This document shows positions 18,098-35,140 of a DNA stretch of 35,629 nucleotides, piece after piece (position 1 is the first letter of the stretch; each line of letters begins with the position of its first letter). This DNA comes from Clostridia bacterium. GTDB taxonomy: Bacteria; Bacillota; Clostridia; Oscillospirales; CAG-272. A model generated the notes under the pieces. It was not told the DNA's origin. It saw nothing but the letters and a program-made list of their open reading frames with translations, and did no database searches. A program made the position numbers and the translations under genes. The stretch spans positions 1-35,629 of the forward strand of contig JAFWXZ010000057.1 of assembly GCA_017522795.1 (NCBI GenBank), written 5' to 3'.

Positions 18098-18152
18098 GTC
18101 ACCAAAAACCACCTAATCCGAACTCGGATTAGGTGGTTTTTCTTTTGGTGAC
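18098..18152 (+). terminator. Strong terminator after the GH3-GH78 operon
   Basis: An 18-bp perfect inverted repeat (18104-18121 with 18124-18141) with a T-rich 3' arm follows the rhamnosidase stop. Outside it, GTCACC (18098-18103) pairs with GGTGAC (18147-18152) across a 5-base bulge, so the whole structure is longer than a usual terminator. The outer pairing suggests it may belong to the hairpin-rich element that follows. Confidence 0.85.
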
Positions 18153-18443: not shown

Positions 18444-18461
18444 TTTGGAAACATTTCCAAA
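18444..18461. promoter_or_regulatory. LacI-type operator O1
   Basis: TTTGGAAACATTTCCAAA is a palindrome with perfect 8-bp arms around a central CA, the symmetric form typical of LacI-family operators. It lies just upstream of the -35 hexamer of the fructan operon and is identical to O2, 56 bp (centre to centre) downstream. Confidence 0.85.
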
Positions 18462-18467
18462 AAGCCC

Positions 18468-18496
18468 TTGCTTTTTTCTTTTAATTAGTTTATAAT
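18468..18496 (+). promoter_or_regulatory. Promoter of the fructan operon
   Basis: TTGCTT (18468-18473), a 17-base spacer and TATAAT (18491-18496) lie between two identical operators. Transcription should start near 18503, inside the downstream operator. No other strong promoter is obvious up to the window end. Confidence 0.8.
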
Positions 18497-18499
18497 GAC

Positions 18500-18517
18500 T
18501 TTGGAAACATTTCCAAA
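18500..18517. promoter_or_regulatory. LacI-type operator O2
   Basis: This exact second copy of TTTGGAAACATTTCCAAA covers the predicted transcription start. A repressor bound here would block initiation, and together with O1 could loop the promoter. The LacI-family gene at 25842 in the same operon is the obvious candidate. Confidence 0.85.
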
Positions 18518-18590: not shown

Positions 18591-20033
18591 ATGGCAAATT
18601 TATTATTAAGGCACATTTACAAAATTTACCCCGGTGTTGGCAAGGTTAAGAAGAATGCCAAGGGCGAGGCAAAAAAGAGAAGCGGCGATTTCGTTGCGGT
18701 AAAGGACTTTAATATGGAGATCGCTGACGGCGAGTTTATCGTATTCGTAGGTCCTTCGGGCTGCGGTAAATCAACCACTCTTCGTATGATCGCAGGTCTT
18801 GAGGAGATCAGCGGCGGCGAGCTGTATATCGACGATCAGCTTGTCAACGACGTTGACGCAAAGGACAGAGATATAGCTATGGTGTTCCAGAGCTACGCGC
18901 TTTACCCTCACCTTACAGCCTACGACAACATAGCCTTCGGTCTTAAGATGCGAAAGGTAGCCGTTCCTAAGCTTGATAAGGAAGGAAATCAGATCGTCGC
19001 AATCGACGAGAAGAAGATCGGCGAGCTTAAAAATAAGCTGAAGAGACTTTATAAGGAAAACGAGTCTCTCGCAAAGGAGATCGAATCCCTCAAGGCAGAC
19101 GGCGCAGAGGGCGACTCTATTTATTACACAGAAAAGAAGGCACTCCTCGTAAAGCGCATCAACGATGCCGAGGAGGAGCTTAAATATTATAAGAACACTC
19201 CCGTTCCTATGGTCACCTACGTTCATATGTCCAAGCAGGAGATTGACGAGAAGGTGCAGTGGGCGGCAGGCGTCCTCGGAATTGAGGAACTGCTTGACTC
19301 CAAGCCCGCAGAGATGTCGGGCGGTCAGCGTCAGCGTATCGCTCTCGGTCGCGCAATGGTCCGCGGACCTAAGGTGTTCCTGCTTGACGAGCCTCTCTCC
19401 AACCTGGACGCGAAGCTCAGAACCGCAATGAGAGCCGAGATCGTAAAATTACATAATCAGCTGAAAACTACCTTTATATATGTAACCCACGATCAGATCG
19501 AGGCAATGACGATGGGTACCCGTATCGTAGTTATGAAGCTTGGCGTTATTCAGCAGATCGACACACCCACAAACCTGTTCGACTATCCCGAGAACAAGTT
19601 TGTGGCAGGCTTTATCGGAACACCTCAGATGAACTTCTTCGAGGTTGATATAAAGCGTGAGGGCGATAAGCTTGGCGCTACCTTCGAGGACGGACAGAGC
19701 ATCAGCCTTGAGCTTTCGAAGCTACGCACCATTCAGGACAAGTATCTTGACGGCGCCACCCACAGAGTTTATCTCGGTATCAGAGGTGAGAACGTAAAGC
19801 TTGACGACGCTGGCATCAAGGCAACCCTTACTATTAAAGAGGTTCTTGGCAACACCACACAGCTCTTCGTTCGCCTGCGTGAGAATGATCAGGACTTCAT
19901 CGTCAGTGTGCCTGAGAGAAACGATCTGAAGCCCGGCGATAAGGTAGGCGTAAGCTTCGGTGAAGCATTCGTTCATCTCTTCGATAAGGAAACCGAGCTT
20001 TCCATTATGTCGAGAGAGTATGGAAATAAGTAA
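18591..20033 (+). CDS. ABC transporter ATPase (MsmK/UgpC type) with coiled-coil insertion
   Basis: This 480-residue ATPase powers sugar import. Visible are Walker A GPSGCGKST (54-62), Q-loop Q100, signature MSGGQ (242-246), Walker B KVFLLDEP (261-268), the H-loop H300 and the MalK-type C-terminal regulatory domain (about 330-480). It is about 100 residues longer than usual MsmK or MalK. The excess lies at about 121-215, between Q-loop and signature, and is a Lys/Glu-rich helical stretch with heptad-like leucines, probably a coiled coil. There is also a Lys-rich insertion at about 18-30. I start it at ATG 18591, after AAGGGGAAG. An earlier in-frame ATG (18495) lies upstream of the transcription start. 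Its partner permeases are encoded about 10 kb downstream. Confidence 0.9.
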   Translation: MANLLLRHIYKIYPGVGKVKKNAKGEAKKRSGDFVAVKDFNMEIADGEFIVFVGPSGCGKSTTLRMIAGLEEISGGELYIDDQLVNDVDAKDRDIAMVFQSYALYPHLTAYDNIAFGLKMRKVAVPKLDKEGNQIVAIDEKKIGELKNKLKRLYKENESLAKEIESLKADGAEGDSIYYTEKKALLVKRINDAEEELKYYKNTPVPMVTYVHMSKQEIDEKVQWAAGVLGIEELLDSKPAEMSGGQRQRIALGRAMVRGPKVFLLDEPLSNLDAKLRTAMRAEIVKLHNQLKTTFIYVTHDQIEAMTMGTRIVVMKLGVIQQIDTPTNLFDYPENKFVAGFIGTPQMNFFEVDIKREGDKLGATFEDGQSISLELSKLRTIQDKYLDGATHRVYLGIRGENVKLDDAGIKATLTIKEVLGNTTQLFVRLRENDQDFIVSVPERNDLKPGDKVGVSFGEAFVHLFDKETELSIMSREYGNK

Positions 20034-20036
20034 TAT

Positions 20037-21353
20037 ATGAAAAAATGGTTTAAATTCTTCGGAACTGCTTTCTTTTCACATAAGGAAGCAAAGGGAGCGA
20101 CGAAGCGGGGATATACGAACGTATTTTTTGGATTTCTCCTTGTGATCGTATTCCTGTTCACCGCCCTGGTCGGCTCGGATATGCTGCCCTTCGGCGTGCA
20201 TTACGCAAGCTCCCCCGATCTTATGGCTACCGCCCACGCCCTGCTTGCCGATGCCGACAATCGCATCGTGGCCGAGATCTTGGACGGCGACCTGAGAATG
20301 AAGAAGCAGGGGGGCGAATACACAGCGGCGCTGTTAGTAAACACCCTTGAAAATGCCGCCGATAAGCAAAGCTATTCGGTAAACGGCTTTGACGTGGTCG
20401 TTGACACCCGCCCCGCGAAGGCACTTGCCGAGGTAGAGGCCTACTGCCTTTCAAACGACGGCAATAATACCGAGATCTCATACGAGGATTACCTCACGTT
20501 AAGCGAGGTTGCAAGGCTGAACTTTGATTTTAAGCTTAAATACACGGGCAGGGAGCTTGTGCTTACCGACGAGTCTGTGACTGGCTATCTTGAATACCTT
20601 GCGGCACACTCGGAGGAGAGCCGCGCAAAAGTCGAGGGACTGAAAAACGACCTCTCGGGCGAAAAGATCTCGAAGGATGAGTATCATAGGGCGGTGTACG
20701 AGCTTTACTTTGAAGCCTACTACCCAGAGATAACCGCCTATGAGAGCAGCTCGAAGGTACCTCTTCTCAGAAATTATTACTACCATCAATATATAAGTAA
20801 GAATATAGATAACTATCTATTTATATTTGATGATTATATGACAGGATCCTTTGAGACGGTCAGCGGAAACGAGGTTTCCTTCTACGGATTCTTTGGCAAT
20901 ATGGAAAACGGAGCCTTGATCCCCGACGGATGCTCCGAGCAGGAGGCAAACAAAGCCGTAGACGACTTTATCAACGACGCCTTTTGGGCAAACTGGTTCT
21001 TAAAGGCGTACGCTCACCTGATAAACACAATTTCGCTCTCACCCTTTATCGCGCTGATGCTTATGGTCGCGGCGCTTCTGTCCTACTCACTGCTTAGGCT
21101 TATGGGAGTAGAGAGCATCAGCTCTCTCGGTGCGGGTCTGAAGATCGTCGGATCATTCTCCTGGTTCTCGGGACTTTCGGCAGCGGTGATCGCCCTTGCG
21201 CTTTCATTCTTCGTGGACAGAAATTGGATAACGGCTCTGCCGCTGGTGCTGTTCTTTATAGCGCTTATTACAAGGTCGGTAGTATTCGTTATCACCGAGA
21301 AACAGTTATTCGTAAAACAATCCGAGCAAAAAGCTCTGCAGTCGGAGGTGTAA
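20037..21353 (+). CDS. Membrane protein of unknown function, large extracellular domain
   Basis: I do not recognise this 438-residue protein with confidence. One hydrophobic helix lies near the N-terminus (about 28-46) after a basic cytoplasmic start. A predicted extracytoplasmic region of about 290 residues follows, then three helices near the end (about 337-358, 372-393, 397-420) and a short cytoplasmic tail. This one-plus-three layout resembles DUF1189 proteins such as YvdJ, which sits in the Bacillus maltodextrin operon, but that is only an architectural resemblance and this protein is much longer. It starts 3 bp after the ATPase with a weak ribosome binding site and precedes fructokinase, so a role with the ABC transporter or in sensing is plausible. 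Confidence 0.8.
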   Translation: MKKWFKFFGTAFFSHKEAKGATKRGYTNVFFGFLLVIVFLFTALVGSDMLPFGVHYASSPDLMATAHALLADADNRIVAEILDGDLRMKKQGGEYTAALLVNTLENAADKQSYSVNGFDVVVDTRPAKALAEVEAYCLSNDGNNTEISYEDYLTLSEVARLNFDFKLKYTGRELVLTDESVTGYLEYLAAHSEESRAKVEGLKNDLSGEKISKDEYHRAVYELYFEAYYPEITAYESSSKVPLLRNYYYHQYISKNIDNYLFIFDDYMTGSFETVSGNEVSFYGFFGNMENGALIPDGCSEQEANKAVDDFINDAFWANWFLKAYAHLINTISLSPFIALMLMVAALLSYSLLRLMGVESISSLGAGLKIVGSFSWFSGLSAAVIALALSFFVDRNWITALPLVLFFIALITRSVVFVITEKQLFVKQSEQKALQSEV

Positions 21354-21354
21354 A

Positions 21355-22260
21355 TTGTTAATTTGCATTGGAGAGATCCTTGCCGATATGATAGGCGAGG
21401 AGAAAAACGGAATTACAACATATGAAAGAAAAGCAGGCGGCGCGCCCTTTAACGTAGCCTGCGCATTAAAGAAGTTCGGTGCGGACGTTAAGTTCGTCGG
21501 CAGTGTCGGAGACGACCTTATCGGTAAGTTTCTGATAAAATACGCCGCGGACTTCGGTATGGACACCGAGTATATCCACAGGTGCGAGGACAGAAACACC
21601 ACCCTTGCCTTCGTGGAGCTGAACGAGGAGGGGGAGAGATCCTTCTGCTTCTACAGAAAGAATACGGCGGATTACTGTATGCCCGCTGTAAGTGACGAGC
21701 TGATTAAATCGGCGGACATCGTTTCTGTCGGTTCGCTTATGCTTGCGGACGATACCTGCGTGGAATACGCCCTTGATATAATCAGACGCGCTCATTCCTT
21801 TGGCAAGACGGTTGCCTTTGACGTAAATTACCGCACCGATATCTTCAGAGATAAGGAAAGCGCCGTGAGAACCTACAAGAAGATTCTCGCCGCGGCGGAT
21901 ATAGTTAAGTTTTCCGAGGACGAGGTAGAGACCTTTACCGAGGAGTACGTAGACTCGCTTTCCAACAAGCTGGTGCTTATCACTCTCGGTAAGGACGGCA
22001 GCGAGTGGAGATATGAGGGCAAGAGGGGCAAAGTACCCACCATCACCGTCAAGCCCGTAGATACCACGGGTGCCGGCGACGCCTTCTTCGCAGGAGCGTT
22101 GTCTATATTAAATAATAATGTAGGAAAGCCTCTTACAGAGGAGATCCTGAACGAGTCGCTGAGATTCGGAAATATTGCAGGTGCGCTTAACACCACAGGC
22201 CGCGGTGCTATCGACCATCTGCCTGACTTAGACACTATAAAAACATATCTTAATATATAA
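21355..22260 (+). CDS. scrK: Fructokinase, PfkB/ribokinase family, TTG start
   Basis: This 301-residue cytoplasmic kinase most likely converts fructose to fructose 6-phosphate. It shows the N-terminal GGAPFNVA motif (28-35), sugar-site residues around NTADYCMP, and the C-terminal signature DTTGAGDAF (236-244) with catalytic base D242. The start is TTG 21355, one base after the previous stop, with GGAGG 8-12 bases upstream inside the end of the membrane-protein gene. The location between transport genes and GH32 enzymes supports fructose as substrate; the PfkB fold alone would also allow other sugars. Confidence 0.88.
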   Translation: MLICIGEILADMIGEEKNGITTYERKAGGAPFNVACALKKFGADVKFVGSVGDDLIGKFLIKYAADFGMDTEYIHRCEDRNTTLAFVELNEEGERSFCFYRKNTADYCMPAVSDELIKSADIVSVGSLMLADDTCVEYALDIIRRAHSFGKTVAFDVNYRTDIFRDKESAVRTYKKILAAADIVKFSEDEVETFTEEYVDSLSNKLVLITLGKDGSEWRYEGKRGKVPTITVKPVDTTGAGDAFFAGALSILNNNVGKPLTEEILNESLRFGNIAGALNTTGRGAIDHLPDLDTIKTYLNI

Positions 22261-25841: not shown

Positions 25842-26810
25842 ATGGAAACAACAATTAAAGACGTAGCAAAATATGCAGGCGTTGGCGTCGGCACCGTGTC
25901 GAGAGTTATCAATAACGAGAAGGCGGTGGGCGACAAGACCAGGGAAAAGGTTCTCGAGGCGATGAGAGTGCTTAACTATTCGCGCAACAATATGGCGTTT
26001 CGGTTAAGAAAGAACGAAAATCTCATTATCGCCCTCCTGGTACCCGTTATAAATCACCCCTTCTTCGCGAAACTTGCGTATTACGTAGAGGACGAGGCAG
26101 GTAAATTCGGATATTCGGTGATTCTGGTTTCCTCACAGCAGAAGGTTGATAAGGAGACCGAGATCATCACCAAGATCAAGCACAGAGAGATCGACGGAGC
26201 AGTTTTCGTCACTCACTATATGCATGATGAAGAAGACCTGCAGAATTGTCCTATAGTATCAATAGACAGAACCTTCGGTCAGGATATTCCTTACGTCACC
26301 AGCGACAATTACGACGCTACGAGGGAGGCGATAAGGTATATGATAGAGAGGGGAGCAAAGAAGGTTGGATTTCTTGGCTCAAAGCCTCTCGTAGCCTCCG
26401 AGGTTATGGAAAGAGAGCGGGCATACCTTGACGTTATGAAGGAATACGCTATGCAGCCCCGTATGTTAAACGAGGTAATGCAGCACGGTGAGGAGATGTC
26501 CATAGCTCCCGATTTTATGGAGCGCTATCCCGACGTAGACGGCGTTTTCGTCTCGGGATATACTCTCTCGCAGTTTCTCTACGAGGCTGCGATAGAGCAG
26601 GGGAAAAGGATCCCCGACGATCTTCAGATAGTATCCTATGACGGCAGCTTCAAGCAATGGGGCATCAGTAATATGACCAGCGTGGAGCAGCCCATTGAGG
26701 AGATGGCAAGGCAGGTCGTAAGGCTGCTTATCAAGAAGATCCACGGCGAGCAGACCTGTCAGAGAACGGTTCTGAAAACCAAATTCGTGCTTGGCGCGAC
26801 TACAAAATGA
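25842..26810 (+). CDS. LacI-family repressor of the fructan operon
   Basis: This 322-residue regulator begins with a typical LacI helix-turn-helix (IKDVAKYAGVGVGTVSRVIN, residues 5-24) and hinge (about 45-57), followed by a periplasmic-binding-protein-like effector domain. It probably binds the two identical palindromes around the operon promoter at 18444-18517. Since it is encoded within the operon, it would also limit its own synthesis. The inducer is unknown; fructose or a fructooligosaccharide is likely from context. The start has only a weak purine stretch (GGA about 14 bases upstream), suggesting low translation as expected for a repressor in a highly expressed operon. Confidence 0.9.
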   Translation: METTIKDVAKYAGVGVGTVSRVINNEKAVGDKTREKVLEAMRVLNYSRNNMAFRLRKNENLIIALLVPVINHPFFAKLAYYVEDEAGKFGYSVILVSSQQKVDKETEIITKIKHREIDGAVFVTHYMHDEEDLQNCPIVSIDRTFGQDIPYVTSDNYDATREAIRYMIERGAKKVGFLGSKPLVASEVMERERAYLDVMKEYAMQPRMLNEVMQHGEEMSIAPDFMERYPDVDGVFVSGYTLSQFLYEAAIEQGKRIPDDLQIVSYDGSFKQWGISNMTSVEQPIEEMARQVVRLLIKKIHGEQTCQRTVLKTKFVLGATTK

Positions 26811-26849
26811 TTATTATAAAAAATAAAGTTGTATAAAGGAGAAAAAATC

Positions 26850-28175
26850 ATGAAAAAGCTTTTATGCTCACTTACTTCACTCTTACTCGTGGTTATTATG
26901 CTGTTCGGTATGACCGCCTGTGTTGGAGGCAATCCTGACGGCACCGGAGACGGAGATGGCACCTCTACCGATAAAGAGGGCAATACCATAGTCAAGATTA
27001 TGTTCCACGTTGATAAGTCCTCTACCGAGGGTCAGGCTTATCAGAAGAGAATTGATGCCTTCAACGCGGCTTACAAGGATCAGAAGATCAAGGCTCAGGC
27101 TATTTTCAAGGCGCGCTCCGCAGGCGCATCGGGCTATGAGACCGAGCTTCAGAACAATCAGCTTGAGGGAACTCTCGCAGACATCATCACCTTCGACGCA
27201 CCTAACACCGCTGCATACGCAAGCGCAGGTCTGCTCTACGATATCAGCGATCTTATCTCTAAGGATGAGCAGGATAAGTTCTTCTCTCTCAATATGTACA
27301 ACGGCAAGCTTTACGGTCTTCCCATTCAGGAGTCCAGCGCAGGCTTCTTCTATAATAAGAAGATCTTCCGCGAGGCAGGCATAGATGTCGGCGGCTACAC
27401 CGCAGAGAACCCCTGGACCTTCGAGCAGTTCAAGGACGTTTGTGCAAGACTCAAGGCACACGGCGTGACTCCCGTTGATATGCGTCTTGACGCTACCAAG
27501 GACGAGACCGCTCCTTACCTCCTCTATCCCTTCATCTACGCGGCAGGCGGCGACTTCGTTTCCTCTGACGGATATACCGCAAAGGGCTATTACAACTCCG
27601 CTGAGACCGCGAAGGGCTTCCAGTTCATCAAGGATCTCATCACCGCAGGCTACACCTCCTACTCCATCGGCGCTACCGACTTCTTCACAGGTAAGGTTGG
27701 TATGTATCTTTCTTCCGGTTGGACTATTCCCGATCTTGATAACAAGTACAGAGAGCAGTTCGCTTCCCGCGATGACTGGGGACTTCTTCCTTATCCCAAG
27801 GGCGCAGAGGCTGCCAGCGCAACAGGTAGCTGGTCCTACGCAATTACAAACAACCACCACGAGGACAAGACCGCATCTCTCGAGCTTCTTAAGTGGATGA
27901 CCTCTGCAGAAAGCTCTGAGGCTATCACCACCGCAACAGGTATGATCCCCGCCCGCAGAGACGTAGTTAAGAACTATGCGCAGGGCTCTCCTGAGTACAC
28001 TCTTCTGAAGCAGCTTGAGCTCAGCGGCAGAGAGCGTCCCGTAACCGTTGCATACCCCACCTTCTCCACTACCTTCAACCAGATCATTTACGGTCTTGGC
28101 AATGGCAATGTGACCGACCTTCTTAACAATGCAACCAACACTCTTCAGGATGCAATGGATAAGGTTAAAAAATAA
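26850..28175 (+). CDS. ABC transporter solute-binding lipoprotein
   Basis: This 441-residue family 1 extracellular solute-binding protein delivers a sugar to the permeases encoded next. It has a lipoprotein signal with MTAC lipobox (C24), a Gly/Asp/Thr-rich linker (25-45), then the two-lobed fold of the maltose-binding type. I start at ATG 26850, after AAAGGAG; the frame is open seven codons further upstream from a TTG but that would include the ribosome binding site. Codons in the mature part are strongly biased, with almost only AAG for Lys, GAG for Glu and no TTA, CTA or TCA from 26886 to 27860, consistent with high expression. The substrate is inferred to be a fructooligosaccharide or fructose. 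Confidence 0.92.
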   Translation: MKKLLCSLTSLLLVVIMLFGMTACVGGNPDGTGDGDGTSTDKEGNTIVKIMFHVDKSSTEGQAYQKRIDAFNAAYKDQKIKAQAIFKARSAGASGYETELQNNQLEGTLADIITFDAPNTAAYASAGLLYDISDLISKDEQDKFFSLNMYNGKLYGLPIQESSAGFFYNKKIFREAGIDVGGYTAENPWTFEQFKDVCARLKAHGVTPVDMRLDATKDETAPYLLYPFIYAAGGDFVSSDGYTAKGYYNSAETAKGFQFIKDLITAGYTSYSIGATDFFTGKVGMYLSSGWTIPDLDNKYREQFASRDDWGLLPYPKGAEAASATGSWSYAITNNHHEDKTASLELLKWMTSAESSEAITTATGMIPARRDVVKNYAQGSPEYTLLKQLELSGRERPVTVAYPTFSTTFNQIIYGLGNGNVTDLLNNATNTLQDAMDKVKK

Positions 28176-28205: not shown

Positions 28206-29177
28206 ATGACAAACACTTCATTAATAATTTTAGGATTGTTTATATGCGCTTTCTGTGGCTTTGCCGTCTATGACTTAGCCACAGCAAAGAGGCATAAAGA
28301 GGTTTATCGAGCTAAATCCTCGATAACGGCATATCTTATGCTGCTTCCGTCGGTAGCCCTTGCCTTCCTATTTATATTATTACCTATTTTATATTCGTTA
28401 GGCTACGCTTTTACCGACTACTATTTATTAAAGCCGAATGAGATCGGATTCGTATTCCTTGATAATTTCGCCGAGCTTTTCAAAGAGATCTCGGAGAAGG
28501 GAATGCTTTATAACGCGATCATCAATACGGTCACCTTCGTGGTAGGCGTCGTGCCCTTACAGATCGGACTTGCTCTTCTGCTTGCTCTCTTTGTAAACCG
28601 CCCCTGCTTCGGAAGTAAAATATTTAAGGTTTGCTTTTTCGCTCCCGTCGTAATCTCGCTGTCGGTCACGGCGTTCCTCTGGGAACAGATCCTTGCCCCC
28701 GGCGAGGGAGGACTTCTGAACGCTATGCTTGGTATGTTCGGCGTACCTCCTCACGACTGGCTTCGCGATCCCAATACCGCGATGCCCTGTATCATCGTGC
28801 TCAGTGCATGGCAGGGCTGCGGATATCAGATGCTGATCTTCCTCTCGGGACTTTCCAATATCAGAAAGGATCTGTACGAGGCAGCAGCTCTGGACGGAGC
28901 AAACGGATGGCATAAATTCTGGAACGTGACCTGGGTAGGACTTCGCTCCACCTTCGTCTACATACTTATCACCGTGTTTATCGGTGCGTGCAGAATTTTA
29001 ACTCAGCCTATGCTGATGACGGGATATATGAGCCACACGGTCACCTTGTCCTACTATATGTACAACCTCGGATATACCGAGCGTTGGGTAGGAGAATCCT
29101 CGGCGGTCGCACTGCTTATGACCATCTTCATCGGTGGCGTGACGCTGATTCAGCGCAGAATGTTCAGGGAGAAGTAA
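28206..29177 (+). CDS. ABC sugar permease, MalF/UgpA type
   Basis: This 323-residue membrane permease has the EAA loop at 225-232 (EAAALDGA) that contacts the ATPase. It carries an additional hydrophobic helix at the very N-terminus (about 5-24), ahead of the usual first helix (AYLMLLPSVALAFLF, about 42-56), so it has about seven membrane segments rather than six. No clear Shine-Dalgarno precedes the ATG. A three-codon reading frame (ATG AAA AAA TGA at 28198) overlaps the start. It follows the binding protein by 30 bp without a terminator, so reduced translation relative to the binding protein is likely. Confidence 0.9.
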   Translation: MTNTSLIILGLFICAFCGFAVYDLATAKRHKEVYRAKSSITAYLMLLPSVALAFLFILLPILYSLGYAFTDYYLLKPNEIGFVFLDNFAELFKEISEKGMLYNAIINTVTFVVGVVPLQIGLALLLALFVNRPCFGSKIFKVCFFAPVVISLSVTAFLWEQILAPGEGGLLNAMLGMFGVPPHDWLRDPNTAMPCIIVLSAWQGCGYQMLIFLSGLSNIRKDLYEAAALDGANGWHKFWNVTWVGLRSTFVYILITVFIGACRILTQPMLMTGYMSHTVTLSYYMYNLGYTERWVGESSAVALLMTIFIGGVTLIQRRMFREK

Positions 29178-29178
29178 T

Positions 29179-30093
29179 ATGGATGAAATAAAGAATCTGC
29201 CTAACTTCAGGCCTAATAAAACACCCGTCAAGAAAACCGTAAAAGAGGTTATCTATTACGTTGTCGGAATAGTTTTATCCTTAATATTCATACTGCCCAT
29301 ACTGTATATGCTGGCAACCTCCACAAAGAGCGAATCGGCTTACGCTGAGAGCGTTGGAACGCTCAGTATGTTCCTGCCCGATTTTGCAAATCTCGGAATT
29401 GCCTTTGATAACTACAAGAGCGTTCTGGTCAACTACGACATCTGGAAATACGCTCTGAACAGCTTTATCTACGCGGCTATCGTTATCGTACTCAATATAC
29501 TGATCAACGGTCTTGCGGGCTACGCTATGGCAAAGCTTACCTTCCCGGGTAAAAAGCTTCTGTCCTTTATGATCATCTTCCTGATCGTCGTACCCGTCGA
29601 AACCTCGATAATCCCCCTTTACTCCATAGTTAAGATAATGCTTGGATTAAAGCAGGAGATGTCGGTCATCGGTGTAATTCTCCCCGCGGCGATAAGCATA
29701 TTCAACATATTCCTGTTTATGCAGTTCTTCCAGAATATTCCGAAGGAGTATGAGGAAGCGGCGCGTATGGACGGCGCAAACACACTTGACGTATTCTTTA
29801 AGGTAATAATGCCCCTGTCAAAGCCCATTCTCGCGACGGTAGCGGTATTCTGCTTCATCGGTGTCTGGAACGATTATCTCTGGCCCTCGATGATACTGCC
29901 CGCAGCCGACGACGGATCCTGGTCGCTTTTACCTATTCAGACGGCGCTTATCACCATAAAGAGCATAGAGGGTATTACCACGGGCGAGATAATGGCTTCG
30001 CTGGTAATCACAAGTATACCTATCTTCGTGACTTACGTTGCGGCACAAAAATACATTGTACAAGGCTTTGGCACGTCCGGGCTTAAAATGTGA
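29179..30093 (+). CDS. ABC sugar permease, MalG/UgpE type
   Basis: This 304-residue permease has six hydrophobic segments and an EAA loop at 192-200 (EEAARMDGA). It starts one base after the previous permease, with AGGGAGAAG upstream. The C-terminus (KYIVQGFGTSGLKM) matches the usual end of this family. It forms a heterodimeric channel with the preceding permease. The only ATPase visible for it is the one encoded at 18591. Confidence 0.92.
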   Translation: MDEIKNLPNFRPNKTPVKKTVKEVIYYVVGIVLSLIFILPILYMLATSTKSESAYAESVGTLSMFLPDFANLGIAFDNYKSVLVNYDIWKYALNSFIYAAIVIVLNILINGLAGYAMAKLTFPGKKLLSFMIIFLIVVPVETSIIPLYSIVKIMLGLKQEMSVIGVILPAAISIFNIFLFMQFFQNIPKEYEEAARMDGANTLDVFFKVIMPLSKPILATVAVFCFIGVWNDYLWPSMILPAADDGSWSLLPIQTALITIKSIEGITTGEIMASLVITSIPIFVTYVAAQKYIVQGFGTSGLKM

Positions 30094-30099
30094 GGAAAT

Positions 30100-32637
30100 A
30101 TGAAACTTAACAGAATTATAGCATTAATACTACTTCTGGTTATGCTAATTGGCACTGCTACGGGATGTAATCTCTTCCCCGGAAGCAATCCCGATACTGA
30201 TACCGATACGGATAAGTCTCCCGCGGGTAAAGAATCCCTCGTGCTGAATTATTCGCTTGACGAGGCATCGGGCAGTCTTACCAAGGAATCGGTAAGCGGT
30301 AATGACTATACCATTAACTACGTGTTCAACGAGCAGAACGCTGCCAATCTCTTCAAGGAGCCTAACGATCCCCTGAGAAGACCCGGTGTAAAGGGCAACG
30401 CCTTATATATGGACGGCTTCTCAAACAATATTGTAAACAGGGATTTCGTAGCTCCCTCCTCGGCAATAACCATGTCCGCCTGGGTAGCACCCAGAGTATT
30501 TGAAAATATCGTTTATTACGGTGGCGAGACCGCGGGCGCAGGCCATACCCGCCTTACCTCTATCATCAACAAGGGTGATATCGAGATGGGCGAGGGCTTC
30601 CTTCTCGGCTATGGCAGACTGGGCCTCTGGGGCATTCAGCTTGCATTGCATAGCGAGGAAACAGGCGAGGACTTCGTAATTGGCTTCTACGATCCCATCA
30701 ACGCCCTTCCTCTTTACGAGTGGTCTCACGTTGCCGTCACCTTCGACGGTGAGACTGGATATATCGCCCTCTTCTTCAACGGCGAGAAGTCCTACGAGGC
30801 GCTTATTCCCGAGCTTGTTGCTACAAGCATCATTTCCACCGAGGAGCCCCTTCGTATCGGCGCATACGTCACCCCCCAGATCGAGTTCGGTATCAAGAGA
30901 CAGATGGTCTCCGGACTTCTCGACGAGGTGCAGATTTACTCCGCATCTCTGACACCCAAGGAGATCGCTGAGATCTATGCAGATACCGATTCCGAGGCAG
31001 AGCATCCCTATCTTGACTGGAAGGACATTGCACTTGACTCCTCTGTTTACGAGGGTGACCGCTACCGTCCCCAGTACCACGCAATTCCCCCTGCAGTATG
31101 GATGAATGAGCCTCATTCTCCCTTCTACTACAAGGGTATGTATCACGTATTCTATCAGCACAATCCCGCAGGCCCCTATTGGTCGCAGATCCGCTGGGCT
31201 CATATCGTAAGTGAGGATATGGTTCACTGGAAATACGTTAAGGACGCCGTAGTTCCCACCGCTGGCATCTGTCCCGAGGGTATCTGGACGGGCGGCGCAT
31301 GCATCGGTCCCGACGGCACACCCTGGCTTGCAATTACCGCGGGTACGAACCTGTACGGTAATCCCAACCACGGCGGTCAGAACGTTGCATTTGCCCACGC
31401 GGCAGATCCTAACGATCCTTATCTCGTTGATTGGATCGTCGAGGATAAGCTTGTTATCACCCAGCCTAACGACAATACCCAGGGCGAGAGAGAGCAGTTC
31501 CGTGATCCCTTCGTCTGGTATGACGATGGCACATATTATATGATGGTCTCCACCTCTATCCCCGGTGCGGGCGGCTCGGCAGTTGTTTACACCTCCGAGA
31601 ATATGAGAGAGTGGGATCACCGCGGATATCTCTATCAGTGCGATTACAACAGATATCCCGAGCAGGGCGCTCACTGGGAGTGCGTAGTAATGCTTCCCAT
31701 CAGCACCAAGGACGGCTCCAAGACAAAGTACATTCTCTTTGACTGTCCTCAGTACACCGTAGACGGCTACACCGTTGAGTGCTACTACTGGATAGGAACC
31801 TTTGATAAGGAAAACTGCAGATTTATTGCAGATGACGATAAGCCTAAGCTCTTTGACCTGGGCAGAGGCGTATATACAGGTCAGAACGGCTTCTGCTTCC
31901 TCACCGAGGAGCAGATAGCGGCAGGCAAGTCCTACGAGGACGGCAGAACTATCCTTTACGCTATTGCGCAGGGTAAGGACGCAGGTACCGCGCAGAACGC
32001 TACTGCAGGCTGGGCGCACAACTTTGCAATTCCTCTTGAGCTCTGGCTCTCCGACGACGGCACCGAGGTAATCCGCGAGCCCGTTAAGGAGATCGAAAGC
32101 TTAAGAAAGGAAACGCTTTACTCCTACAGCGGCGATGGTAAGACCGCAGACGAGGTCAACGGCGAGATCTCCGAGCTTCGCGGCGACCTTCTTGAGATCA
32201 GAGCGACAGTTGAGCTTGATCCTACCAACCCCGATTACTCCGCAGGCTTCTTCGTAAGATATAATCCTTACGATCTTGACGGTAGAACCGAGAGAACCGA
32301 GATCAGATTCTGTGACGAGGGCGTTCTGGTTGACAGAATTCAGTCCTCAATGCTCGATTACGTCAGCCGTCAGCCCAGCCACACATGGGATCGCGTTAAG
32401 AAGGAATATGAGATCACCATTCTTCTCGACCGTTCTATGCTGGAGGTTTACGTTGACGGAGTTATCAGCTTCACAACGAGAATTTATCCCAAATACGGCG
32501 ACTCTGATTTCTTAAGAGTCTTTGACAACAATGCAAACATTAAGTTTACCGAGCTTCACATTTACCGTATGGGCAGCGCGTACAGCGATACCGTAACGCC
32601 TCCTTACTACGGCAATATGGGAAACTTAGGTGAATAG
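30100..32637 (+). CDS. GH32 family lipoprotein with Glu at nucleophile position
   Basis: This 845-residue surface protein has lipobox ATGC (C23), an Asp/Thr-rich tether (about 30-40), an N-terminal LamG/concanavalin-like domain (about 46-300), a GH32 propeller from about 320 and a C-terminal GH32 sandwich (about 660-830, with LLDRSMLEVYVDG). The second and third catalytic motifs are normal: RDP at 468-470 and E527 in HWEC. The first motif reads WMNEPHSP (334-341) in place of WMNDPNG, so the nucleophile Asp is replaced by E337 and the following Asn by His. It may still be an enzyme, with altered specificity (for example transfer rather than hydrolysis), or mainly a binder. It lies between the permeases and a binding lipoprotein, in one operon. 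Confidence 0.88.
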   Translation: MKLNRIIALILLLVMLIGTATGCNLFPGSNPDTDTDTDKSPAGKESLVLNYSLDEASGSLTKESVSGNDYTINYVFNEQNAANLFKEPNDPLRRPGVKGNALYMDGFSNNIVNRDFVAPSSAITMSAWVAPRVFENIVYYGGETAGAGHTRLTSIINKGDIEMGEGFLLGYGRLGLWGIQLALHSEETGEDFVIGFYDPINALPLYEWSHVAVTFDGETGYIALFFNGEKSYEALIPELVATSIISTEEPLRIGAYVTPQIEFGIKRQMVSGLLDEVQIYSASLTPKEIAEIYADTDSEAEHPYLDWKDIALDSSVYEGDRYRPQYHAIPPAVWMNEPHSPFYYKGMYHVFYQHNPAGPYWSQIRWAHIVSEDMVHWKYVKDAVVPTAGICPEGIWTGGACIGPDGTPWLAITAGTNLYGNPNHGGQNVAFAHAADPNDPYLVDWIVEDKLVITQPNDNTQGEREQFRDPFVWYDDGTYYMMVSTSIPGAGGSAVVYTSENMREWDHRGYLYQCDYNRYPEQGAHWECVVMLPISTKDGSKTKYILFDCPQYTVDGYTVECYYWIGTFDKENCRFIADDDKPKLFDLGRGVYTGQNGFCFLTEEQIAAGKSYEDGRTILYAIAQGKDAGTAQNATAGWAHNFAIPLELWLSDDGTEVIREPVKEIESLRKETLYSYSGDGKTADEVNGEISELRGDLLEIRATVELDPTNPDYSAGFFVRYNPYDLDGRTERTEIRFCDEGVLVDRIQSSMLDYVSRQPSHTWDRVKKEYEITILLDRSMLEVYVDGVISFTTRIYPKYGDSDFLRVFDNNANIKFTELHIYRMGSAYSDTVTPPYYGNMGNLGE

Positions 32638-32647
32638 GGAGGGCAAT

Positions 32648-35140
32648 ATGCGTAAAATAACAACCATAATTTTAAGCATTATATGCGTTATCTTACTGTG
32701 CGCTGGTATGGTCGGCTGTCAGTGGTTCAATCCCGATACAGATCCCGATACCAAGCCCGATCCCGACAACATCGTGGTTAAGCCCATTGTAAACGGCGGC
32801 TTTGAATCTGCTGACCTTTCGGGTTGGACTGTAGAATACGGCGACGCCTTTGACGACGATTGCGTCTCCTCGCAGAAGACCTTTATGTTCGAGAATGATG
32901 CAAACAACAATATTCTGTCCATCAACCACACGGGCAACTGGTATCTCACCGGTAAGGGCTATCACGGCAAGTATTCCGGTGCCAGAACGGGCGCTATCCG
33001 TTCTACTGCCTTCACCGTTCCCGAGGACGGTATAGTCAGCCTGAAGCTTGCGGGCGGCTCTCTTACCGTTGGTAAGGGCACCGGCGCACCCCAGAAGGCA
33101 AAGGAAAGACTTTGCTTCGTTGGCTTCTATCTTGCGGAGAATGATAAGATGATCGCAATGCAGACCAACGAGTATTTCCACGAGCATACCGAGGAATACA
33201 TTATTCCCGAGAGATATGCCGCAGGTGTATATAACACCGATAACTTCTACGAGTATTTCCTTGACCTGTCCGAGTATGCAGGCGAGGAGGTATATATCAG
33301 AATAGTAGACAACGATGAGAGCTACTATTACGGCTATATCGCAGTAGACGATATAAAGATCGGCAGTGATGCCGAGCCTCAGACCGAGGGCAACTTCTTC
33401 ACCAAGGTCACAGATTATGCTACCGACGCAGAGGCTCCCTCCATCTACGAGATCGCAAACGGCGACTTCGAGCTTGGCTCTCTTGCAGGCTGGACGGTTG
33501 TTTCGGGCGATGCATTCTCCAACGAGGGTGTAAATACCGAGAGCGTCTGGTGGAATGAGAACATCACCTACTCCCGTGACGGTGACTACCATTACGGAAA
33601 GTATATGCCCTCCGCAACAGGCGTGCTTCGCTCCTCCGAGTTCGTTCTCGGTGGCTCCGGCTACATCAGCTATAAGCTCGGCGGCTGTGAGGATAACGGC
33701 AGAACCTACCTCAGATTTATGGTTAAGCAGGGCGACGAGGCGATCGAGGTCGCAAGATACTCTAACTTCAAGTTCTGGAATTATCAGTTCCCCTACGTTC
33801 AGAACGGCATGCGCCTTCTGAATATGGTTCAGTACTATGCAGACTTCTCGGCATACCTTGGCGAGACTATGTATATTGAGGTGGTTGACACCAACACCTC
33901 CTCCAACGAGCTTGGCTGTATCGTTCTCGATAGCGTCAAGACCTATTGGGAGGAAAAGCCTCTCTGGATCGACAGCGAATCCTTCCTCGTTAAATACGAG
34001 CCCGACATTATGATCGAGAGCGAAAATCAGATCACTAACGGCGGCTTTGAGACAGGCGATCTCACAGGCTGGACCGCAGAGGGTGATAAGATCGGTAGCG
34101 TGACAAACGCTTCCGGTTGGTGGAACGAGAACCTTCCTTATAATAAGAAGGGAACATATCTCTTCTCGGGTATTTCGGATGAGGCAGGCAGAGGAACTCT
34201 TACCAGCTCCGCCTTCACCGTTGGCGGCTCGGGCTACATCACCTTCCTTATGGGCGGTGGCGGAAACCCCCTTGAGTGCTACATCTCTATTATTGATGCC
34301 GAGACCGAGGAGGAGGTTGCCCGCTTCGCTAACAGACTCTTCAACGATAAGGGCATTGGCATAATAAATAACGGCAGTAATCTTGCTAACATGGTGCTCT
34401 ATAAGGCAGATCTCTCCGAGTTTATGGGCAGAAGCCTGAAGATCCGCGTGGTAGATAACGCTACGAGCGGATGGGGACTTATCACCGTGGATAGCTTCGT
34501 CACCTATTATAAAGAAGCATCGAACGTTCCTGCGAAGGCAAACGAGGCTGTGGACATCAAGCCCCAGCCTCTGCCCGACACCGTTCTCGGTGAAAACGAT
34601 CCCTACCAGGTTCTGAACGGCGACTTTGAGACAGGCGACCTTGAGGGCTGGACTATCACTAAAACGAGTGGCAGCACCGAGATGGGCTACGTTTCCGGTC
34701 AGGACGTTTTCTGGAAGAATGCCGATAAGTCCTATAACAAGGACGGCAGATTCCTCTTCACAGGCATTGAGGACGTTATGGGCAGCATGGAGGGCGCGCA
34801 CGGCGTGCTTACCAGCTCTGATTTTACCGTCGGCGGCTGTGGCTTCATCACCTTTAAGCTTGGCGGTGGCTACAACCCTGAATGCTATATCGAGATAGTT
34901 GATGCCGAGACCGACGTTGCAATAGCAAAGTATCACAACGACAATGAATCTCATAACGAGGGACGTATGTTCCTGTTCAAGGCTGATCTTACCGAGTTTA
35001 TGGGAAGAAATGTTTACATTAGAGTGGTAGATAACGCTTCTGCTGACTGGGGATGCCTTGCGGTAGACAGCTTTATCACTCATTACGAATCAATCGAGCA
35101 GCTGCCCGAGGCGGCTCTCGCTGATAATAAGCTTAATTAA
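32648..35140 (+). CDS. Lipoprotein of four tandem GH32-associated binding-type modules
   Basis: This 830-residue protein has no catalytic domain that I can see. The signal peptide ends in MVGC (C24), then comes an Asp/Pro tether (NPDTDPDTKPDPD). Four related modules of about 160-190 residues start at about 49, 271, 464 and 657. Each opens with NG(G/D)FE-x-GxLxGWT, has a TG-x-LxSS-x-F-x-(V/L)GGSG(Y/F)I core and ends in a MG-x-x-(V/L)-x-IRVVDN and DSF segment. Modules of this kind are found attached to bacterial fructanases, so surface fructan binding is likely but unproven. I start at ATG 32648, after GGGAGGG; an overlapping in-frame GTG at 32630 is less likely. The codons contain no TTA, CTA or TCA from 32696 to 35083. 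Confidence 0.88.
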   Translation: MRKITTIILSIICVILLCAGMVGCQWFNPDTDPDTKPDPDNIVVKPIVNGGFESADLSGWTVEYGDAFDDDCVSSQKTFMFENDANNNILSINHTGNWYLTGKGYHGKYSGARTGAIRSTAFTVPEDGIVSLKLAGGSLTVGKGTGAPQKAKERLCFVGFYLAENDKMIAMQTNEYFHEHTEEYIIPERYAAGVYNTDNFYEYFLDLSEYAGEEVYIRIVDNDESYYYGYIAVDDIKIGSDAEPQTEGNFFTKVTDYATDAEAPSIYEIANGDFELGSLAGWTVVSGDAFSNEGVNTESVWWNENITYSRDGDYHYGKYMPSATGVLRSSEFVLGGSGYISYKLGGCEDNGRTYLRFMVKQGDEAIEVARYSNFKFWNYQFPYVQNGMRLLNMVQYYADFSAYLGETMYIEVVDTNTSSNELGCIVLDSVKTYWEEKPLWIDSESFLVKYEPDIMIESENQITNGGFETGDLTGWTAEGDKIGSVTNASGWWNENLPYNKKGTYLFSGISDEAGRGTLTSSAFTVGGSGYITFLMGGGGNPLECYISIIDAETEEEVARFANRLFNDKGIGIINNGSNLANMVLYKADLSEFMGRSLKIRVVDNATSGWGLITVDSFVTYYKEASNVPAKANEAVDIKPQPLPDTVLGENDPYQVLNGDFETGDLEGWTITKTSGSTEMGYVSGQDVFWKNADKSYNKDGRFLFTGIEDVMGSMEGAHGVLTSSDFTVGGCGFITFKLGGGYNPECYIEIVDAETDVAIAKYHNDNESHNEGRMFLFKADLTEFMGRNVYIRVVDNASADWGCLAVDSFITHYESIEQLPEAALADNKLN
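32792..33364 (+). repeat. Binding-type module 1 of 4
   Basis: This first and most divergent copy of the repeated module has a longer central part (with FHEHTEEY and NTDNFYEYF) and lacks the GGSGYI core, having PEDGIVS instead. Confidence 0.7.
33458..33949 (+). repeat. Binding-type module 2 of 4
   Basis: This copy opens with NGDFELGSLAGWT and carries the WWNEN and GGSGYISYKLGG stretches shared with module 3. It reads MYIEVVDTNTSS where the others have IRVVDN. Confidence 0.75.
34037..34513 (+). repeat. Binding-type module 3 of 4
   Basis: This copy opens with NGGFETGDLTGWT and carries GGSGYITFLMGGG, DAETEEEVARFAN and EFMGRSLKIRVVDN. It is the closest relative of module 4. Confidence 0.75.
34616..35089 (+). 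repeat. Binding-type module 4 of 4
   Basis: This copy opens with NGDFETGDLEGWT and carries GGCGFITFKLGGG, DAETDVAIAKYHN and EFMGRNVYIRVVDN. It differs from module 3 mainly in the first third. Confidence 0.75.

Follow-up and report, generated by a model that had tools for sequence, protein, structure and literature searches.

A coiled-coil-like insert within the helical domain of an MsmK-type ATPase from a putative clostridial fructan operon

The locus and its ATPase

The window, by which we mean the whole 35,629-nucleotide stretch of Clostridia bacterium contig JAFWXZ010000057.1 that was analysed, carries what appears to be a fructan operon under local control and equipped with an ATPase of its own (Table 1); the genome encodes several further MsmK-type ATPases. 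The open reading frame of this ATPase starts at 18495, but the conserved start (MANLLLRH) lies at 18591 and gives a protein of 480 residues that ends with the stop at 20033. Upstream stand two copies of an operator-like palindrome; exact matches to TTGGAAANNTTTCCAA are confined, in this genome, to these two sites. Paired GGAAA-NN-TTTCC palindromes, 54-56 bp apart, precede the ATPase gene at 10 of the 15 loci of its clade and a single copy at one more; the pattern was absent from L033 (where the sequence is partly N), L034, L144 and L146. The twin palindromes are the likely site of the LacI-family regulator encoded at 25842, and the operon with its local operators suggests an ATPase dedicated to one importer. 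A 17-pair terminator-like hairpin was also seen at 18104-18141, between a GH78 gene and the ATPase gene, and the second GH32 gene is followed (32630-35140) by that of an 836-residue protein that begins like a lipoprotein and matches only CBM_4_9, weakly (E 0.0074).

Table 1. Features of the ATPase locus, with positions in the window
Feature	Position	Strand	Basis
Operator-like palindrome TTGGAAACATTTCCAA, first copy	18445..18460	.	pattern search
Operator-like palindrome TTGGAAACATTTCCAA, second copy, 56 bp after the first	18501..18516	.	pattern search
MsmK/UgpC/MalK-type ATPase, arm in helical domain	18591..20033	+	Pfam ABC_tran, OB_MalK, TOBE_2; NCBIfam UgpC
Lys-rich second insert, about 17 residues, A-loop region (beta1-beta2), limits approximate	18633..18686	+	Walker A Lys position; orthologue alignment
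Whole insert, residues 122-216, between R121 (MsmX R104) and E217 (MsmX E110)	18954..19238	+	alignments; excerpts of PMC7658222
Stem A, first conserved end, residues 122-139	18954..19007	+	alignment; identity of residues 122-138 over 55 pairs (67.4%)
Helix 1 of hairpin, residues 140-168, predicted	19008..19094	+	heptads
Hairpin tip, residues 169-175, near which orthologue length differences cluster	19095..19115	+	alignments
Helix 2 of hairpin, residues 176-201, predicted, weaker heptads	19116..19193	+	heptads
Stem B, second conserved end, residues 202-216	19194..19238	+	alignment; identity of residues 207-216 (66.5%)
Membrane protein MEMB438: a single TM helix, a large domain and three further hydrophobic segments	20037..21353	+	hydropathy scan
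PfkB-family kinase (fructokinase-like)	21355..22260	+	PF00294
GH32 enzyme, 1170 aa	22276..25788	+	PF00251
LacI-family regulator	25842..26810	+	PF00356
Sugar-binding protein	26829..28175	+	PF13416, PF01547
Permease 1	28206..29177	+	PF00528
Permease 2	29179..30093	+	PF00528
Second GH32 enzyme, with Laminin_G_3 domain	30100..32637	+	domain match

Domains and sequence place the protein among the MsmK/UgpC/MalK (CUT1) importer ATPases, as a variant, despite a spacing of 142 residues between its Q-loop and signature. All three Pfam scores exceed their cut-offs: ABC_tran 107.3 bits (25), OB_MalK 28.9 (27) and TOBE_2 34.5 (21). The NCBIfam UgpC model reaches 416.7 bits, under its cut-off of 432, in a match split into two stretches that flank the insert, which is the likely reason for the shortfall. 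Residues 213-474 share 53% identity with paralogues of the same genome, and the nucleotide-binding domain (NBD) is close to MsmK proteins of the phylum in both identity and tree position. The ATPase resembles MsmX (PDB 6yir) and other MsmK/UgpC proteins in its domain make-up and in its closest solved sequences (7x0q and 6yir); the best solved matches, of 355-408 residues, align in separate stretches around the insert. It also keeps all four residues linked to multitasking in MsmX in excerpts of PMC7658222 (D77, R104, E110 and K154), here as D94, R121, E217 and K261. Unlike MsmX, it has 90 extra residues and an insert in the A-loop region, and it is encoded in its own operon, which has local operators. 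The A-loop insert moves the Walker A lysine to residue 60, versus 43 in ordinary relatives, and is present in aligned orthologues as well as in L034, a relative without the arm. Both this insert and the conserved ends of the larger one are additions to the initial annotation.

A helical-domain insert with conserved ends

From Q100 of the Q-loop to M242 at the start of the signature we count 142 residues, exactly the number first reported. The search for relatives kept 80 loci, and in 73 of the 79 full ORFs with the motifs this spacing is 52, the other six having 70, 107, 124, 180, 183 and 229. It is likewise 52 at all 18 ordinary MsmK loci read from the genus (L122-L139), in ABC2 of EttA, and in MsmX (Q83, signature 135-139; excerpts of PMC7658222): these sets make up our reference. 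The 90 extra residues fall at the alpha3-alpha4 loop of the helical domain, between R121 and E217, whose MsmX equivalents were taken from an alignment with a first row co-numbered with MsmX (K43, Q83, D159, E160). The initial annotation had drawn the insert at 18951-19235, one codon from its alignment-based limits, and had described it as a coiled-coil-like element of the helical subdomain, a description borne out by the alignment and by the heptads of helix 1, less so by those of helix 2.

An artefact or frameshift was rejected, since 14 distinct loci keep both the frame and the two ends, with spacings of 124-229. These loci are the window, L031, L032, L033, L140-L148 and L175, with L031 and L176 lying on one contig and counted once; most come from metagenome-assembled genomes of varying completeness. 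Among the 14 aligned inserts the consensus of stem A is about PVPKLDKEGNQIVAID, or in a longer form about RK[IV]PVPKLDKxGNQxxxID, and that of stem B is about TPVPxxxYVHMSK, extending to TPVPxxxYVHMSKxEID.

The middle of the insert has the look of a coiled-coil hairpin, a reading for which helix 1 speaks strongly and helix 2 weakly. The 62-residue hairpin has no proline, and its mean helix cost of 0.386, compared with 0.457-0.638 for stretches of 66 residues elsewhere in the protein, puts its helix propensity outside the range of the remaining sequence. In helix 1, the a/d positions are 82% hydrophobic over the 14 sequences versus 16% elsewhere, a contrast reached by none of 2000 column shuffles, and the best period is 3.45-3.65 in every sequence. 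The corresponding figures for helix 2 are 78% versus 28%, reached by 63 of 2000 shuffles, with a single-sequence periodicity better than shuffles at p < 0.05 in one of the 14; chance composition is thus ruled out for helix 1, not for helix 2 taken alone. A profile of the insert found no significant relative among solved structures, the best of its 44 weak matches having an E value of 0.23; many of these are coiled coils and others are BiP chains. Such heptads could also pair across chains. Each importer of this family is expected to contain two ATPase copies, and their arms might join, either inside one ATPase dimer or from one importer to the next, and hold complexes together. However, two helical stretches with a short tip and conserved ends suit an intramolecular hairpin, and we consider pairing between arms very improbable.

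The insert evolves much faster than the domain that bears it. Over the 55 pairs formed by 11 sequences, identity is 93.9% in residues 1-121 and 96.6% in 217-345, versus 67.4% in 122-138, 49.3% in 139-206, 66.5% in 207-216 and 74.1% in 346-480, and 1090 of the 1160 gap cells lie within residues 139-206. Hairpin length varies from about 45 to 149 residues among orthologues. Approximate dN/dS values, which are pooled and serve as a rough guide because synonymous sites are near saturation and single pairs gave zeros, are 0.14 for the hairpin; the NBD gives 0.024 and 0.016 in its two parts, and the C-terminal domain 0.098. The arm is thus kept under selection, though loosely.

Distribution, relatives and neighbouring genes

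The arm is rare. ATPases bearing it were found in 10 of 70 genomes of the genus, while the insert profile matched in 5 of 390 genomes of the family and, of 391 genomes of the class, only in that of the window. In a phylum sample of 149 genomes, none of the 144 MsmK-type matches that were listed, beside six of the window's own genome, from 72 other genomes had a net insert of at least 20 residues, the largest among them being 19, with the reservation that a match split by an insert could drop below threshold, though the second half of the window's own ATPase passed. Together with the uniform spacing of ordinary MsmK proteins in the genus, this led us to reject the idea, considered at the outset, that the insert is a general trait of MsmK proteins in this clade. 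The titles and abstract openings of open-licence literature that we read mention neither an insert nor a coiled coil for any MsmK, MalK or UgpC ATPase.

Within the clade, 14 of 15 members keep the arm. The exception, L034, belongs there with support of 100/99 and 100/100 in two trees, has a spacing of 70 and shows no coiled coil. A tree of the core NBD (86 rows, omitting L072-L106 and duplicate loci) places armless L034 inside the arm clade and L033 outside (94/89, not starred); a second tree with more columns and 31 rows left the base unresolved, with the 14 arm rows on one side at support of 31/0. Gain of the arm after the split of L034 and its loss in L034 fit the two trees alike.

The same Q-loop-to-signature segment has been enlarged in other MalK-type ATPases, which differ from the arm clade in their sequences and in their branches of the tree: a 437-residue type at five loci (L155-L159; spacing 78, own clade at 100/100), a C10 type (L152 and L154; 165), and proteins of Mycoplasma sp. 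Ms02 (L037; 183) and Nodosilinea (L035; 107). L037 and the C10 type group at 97/87 on long branches, and their mutual independence is unsure. The C10 protein at L154 (7879-9912 of G000:C10) is a 678-residue MsmK paralogue from the same genome, with an unrelated 113-residue extension at this loop and, towards the C terminus, another long additional stretch; in L155 (6871-8181) and L156-L159 the extension is of 26 residues, RDKSGNPILDENGNQI-like, and perhaps forms a beta-hairpin, a simpler stem. No match to MEMB438 was found in the stretches fetched around L152 and L154-L159.

These recurrent, unrelated extensions speak for the chief alternative to a functional arm, namely that it is a tolerated decoration: a loop away from the active site would have acquired first a short hairpin and later a self-folding coiled coil, which stays foldable, has no partner and drifts in length. 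In agreement with this reading, spacing drifts from 124 to 229 within an NBD that is 94-97% identical, and L034 manages without the arm. Against it stand the conservation of both ends and of the helix 1 heptads, a pooled pN in the hairpin (0.329) below pS (0.738), and the retention of the arm in 14 of 15 clade members. Decoration is a serious possibility, which we hold almost as likely as the explanation that we favour below.

The arm is also tied to its gene neighbours. The PfkB kinase and GH32 genes lie downstream at 13 of the 14 arm loci, the L033 contig ending before them, and the binding-protein gene is reached at ten. Orthologues of permease 1 (66-100% identity) occur in 9 of the 70 genomes of the genus, each an arm genome, the remaining matches being at most 33% identical among those listed; in the tenth arm genome, G008, the contig stops inside the GH32 gene. 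A further link is with the membrane protein MEMB438, whose gene directly follows that of the ATPase at all 14 arm loci. The genus sample has MEMB438 in 11 of its 70 genomes; in the wider samples it occurs in 6 of 395 (family) and 3 of 394 (order). Ten of the 11 genomes in the genus sample and five of the six in the family samples also have the arm ATPase, and every arm genome of the genus has MEMB438.

MEMB438 matched no Pfam or NCBIfam family and has no significant relative among solved structures. The idea that it might be a DUF1189/MalA protein was not supported, as PF06691 was unmatched in all 13 members up to an E value of 10. The only trace of PF06691 in the genome of the window is a 9.7-bit stretch elsewhere than MEMB438, and a search of 59 genomes of the order returned one sub-threshold match, whose reading frame resembles a histidine kinase.

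The initial annotation had named the product of this next gene as a possible partner of the arm; on that reading the arm would dock specifically on MEMB438, an extra importer subunit. The gene linkage is firm, and the co-occurrence agrees with such docking, but an obligate partnership is argued against by two loci. At L034, MEMB438 adjoins the armless ATPase, in the company of a GH3 gene and of two that we take for nagB and nagA, and with no fructan gene seen on the 9.3 kb contig; in G063, a diverged MEMB438 (26%) has glycosidases close by, but the 18 kb fetched there yielded no MsmK-type ATPase. MEMB438 therefore does not need the arm. Moreover, the longest arm, that of L033 (spacing 229), is paired with the shortest MEMB438 (390 residues). 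Specific docking on MEMB438 is thus quite unlikely, and the single armless case, L034, does no more than tilt the balance toward the permeases as the contact of the arm.

Comparison with ABC-F arms and a possible role

Long insertions between the Q-loop and the signature of ABC-type ATPases are known from the DNA-acting proteins SMC/Rad50 and UvrA. A nearer parallel is offered by ABC-F proteins. In E. coli EttA, taken as a control, the spacing is 87 in ABC1 as against the 52 of ABC2, and the Arm of ABC1 aligns (MAFFT) at the same loop as the insert, between the Q-loop helix and the helix before the signature. As described in excerpts of PMC6723617, ABC-F arms are rich in charged residues, poorly conserved and variable in presence and length, have been lost in several Uup lineages, and in EttA contact the L1 stalk. 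The insert of the window resembles them as a charged helical insertion of variable length at the same Q-loop-to-signature loop. The host proteins differ: EttA has two fused NBDs, lacks transmembrane partners and acts on the ribosome (excerpts of PMC6723617), whereas the present protein is an importer ATPase with one NBD and OB/TOBE domains, not two fused NBDs with a linker. The alignment with EttA points to the same place, not to common descent of the arms.

We tentatively favour an arm of the ABC-F kind, evolved separately, on a dedicated ATPase and in contact with its own importer, while rating this somewhat below an even chance. The insert would be an antiparallel coiled-coil hairpin on conserved ends, built into the alpha3-alpha4 loop of an ATPase that probably serves one operon-encoded fructan/sucrose importer. 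Like the ABC-F Arm, it may act as a lever or brace that moves with the helical domain during the ATP cycle; such movement should be expected because, in a simulation of MalFGK2E, helical subdomain changes reach the transmembrane domains via the coupling helices (excerpts of PMC3150292). The arm would add an extra contact, mainly via its base: an exact contact of the tip is unlikely, as the hairpin evolves fast and varies widely in length. The likeliest contact is the cytoplasmic side of the importer, formed by the two permeases, and the arm may favour assembly with this cognate transporter over the other importers of the cell.

In support of this explanation, permease 1 orthologues are confined to arm genomes in the genus sample and no fructan gene was seen on the contig of the armless L034. 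It is further supported by the insertion site with the four multitask residues retained, the EttA Arm at the same loop and the likeness to ABC-F arms in charge and variability, the helix 1 heptads, the retention of the arm across the clade and the twin palindromes. Against it, any gene sharing the operon should co-occur with the permeases, the heptads of helix 2 are weak, just a single relative without the arm is known, and the L033 neighbourhood is truncated by the end of its contig. A statement in excerpts of PMC7658222, that MsmX R104 and E110 lie outside the interface with the transmembrane domains, also weighs against it. The same excerpts assign R104 to the alpha3-alpha4 loop and E110 to alpha4, and report for their joint replacement (R104A/E110A) a cumulative effect on growth via AraNPQ compared with the single mutants.

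The strongest form of the proposal, in which a type I sugar importer evolved independently a moving arm in the style of ABC-F proteins, coupling the ATP cycle to its permeases or to MEMB438 as an undescribed extra subunit, we regard as unlikely. At the least, the clade provides a case from an importer at the position that bears the arms of ABC-F proteins, and this arm sits exactly between two residues reported in the multitask signature of MsmX (excerpts of PMC7658222). Why some sugar importers share an ATPase and others have a private one is an unsettled question discussed in the same excerpts, for which this small clade offers a private-looking ATPase in a fructan operon with local regulation, and one close relative without the arm to compare it with. 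If the strongest form of the proposal holds, the arm clade would show how a shared MsmK ATPase turns dedicated, and coiled coils that read partners, in ribosome factors as in importers, would have a general socket in the alpha3-alpha4 loop of ABC ATPases.
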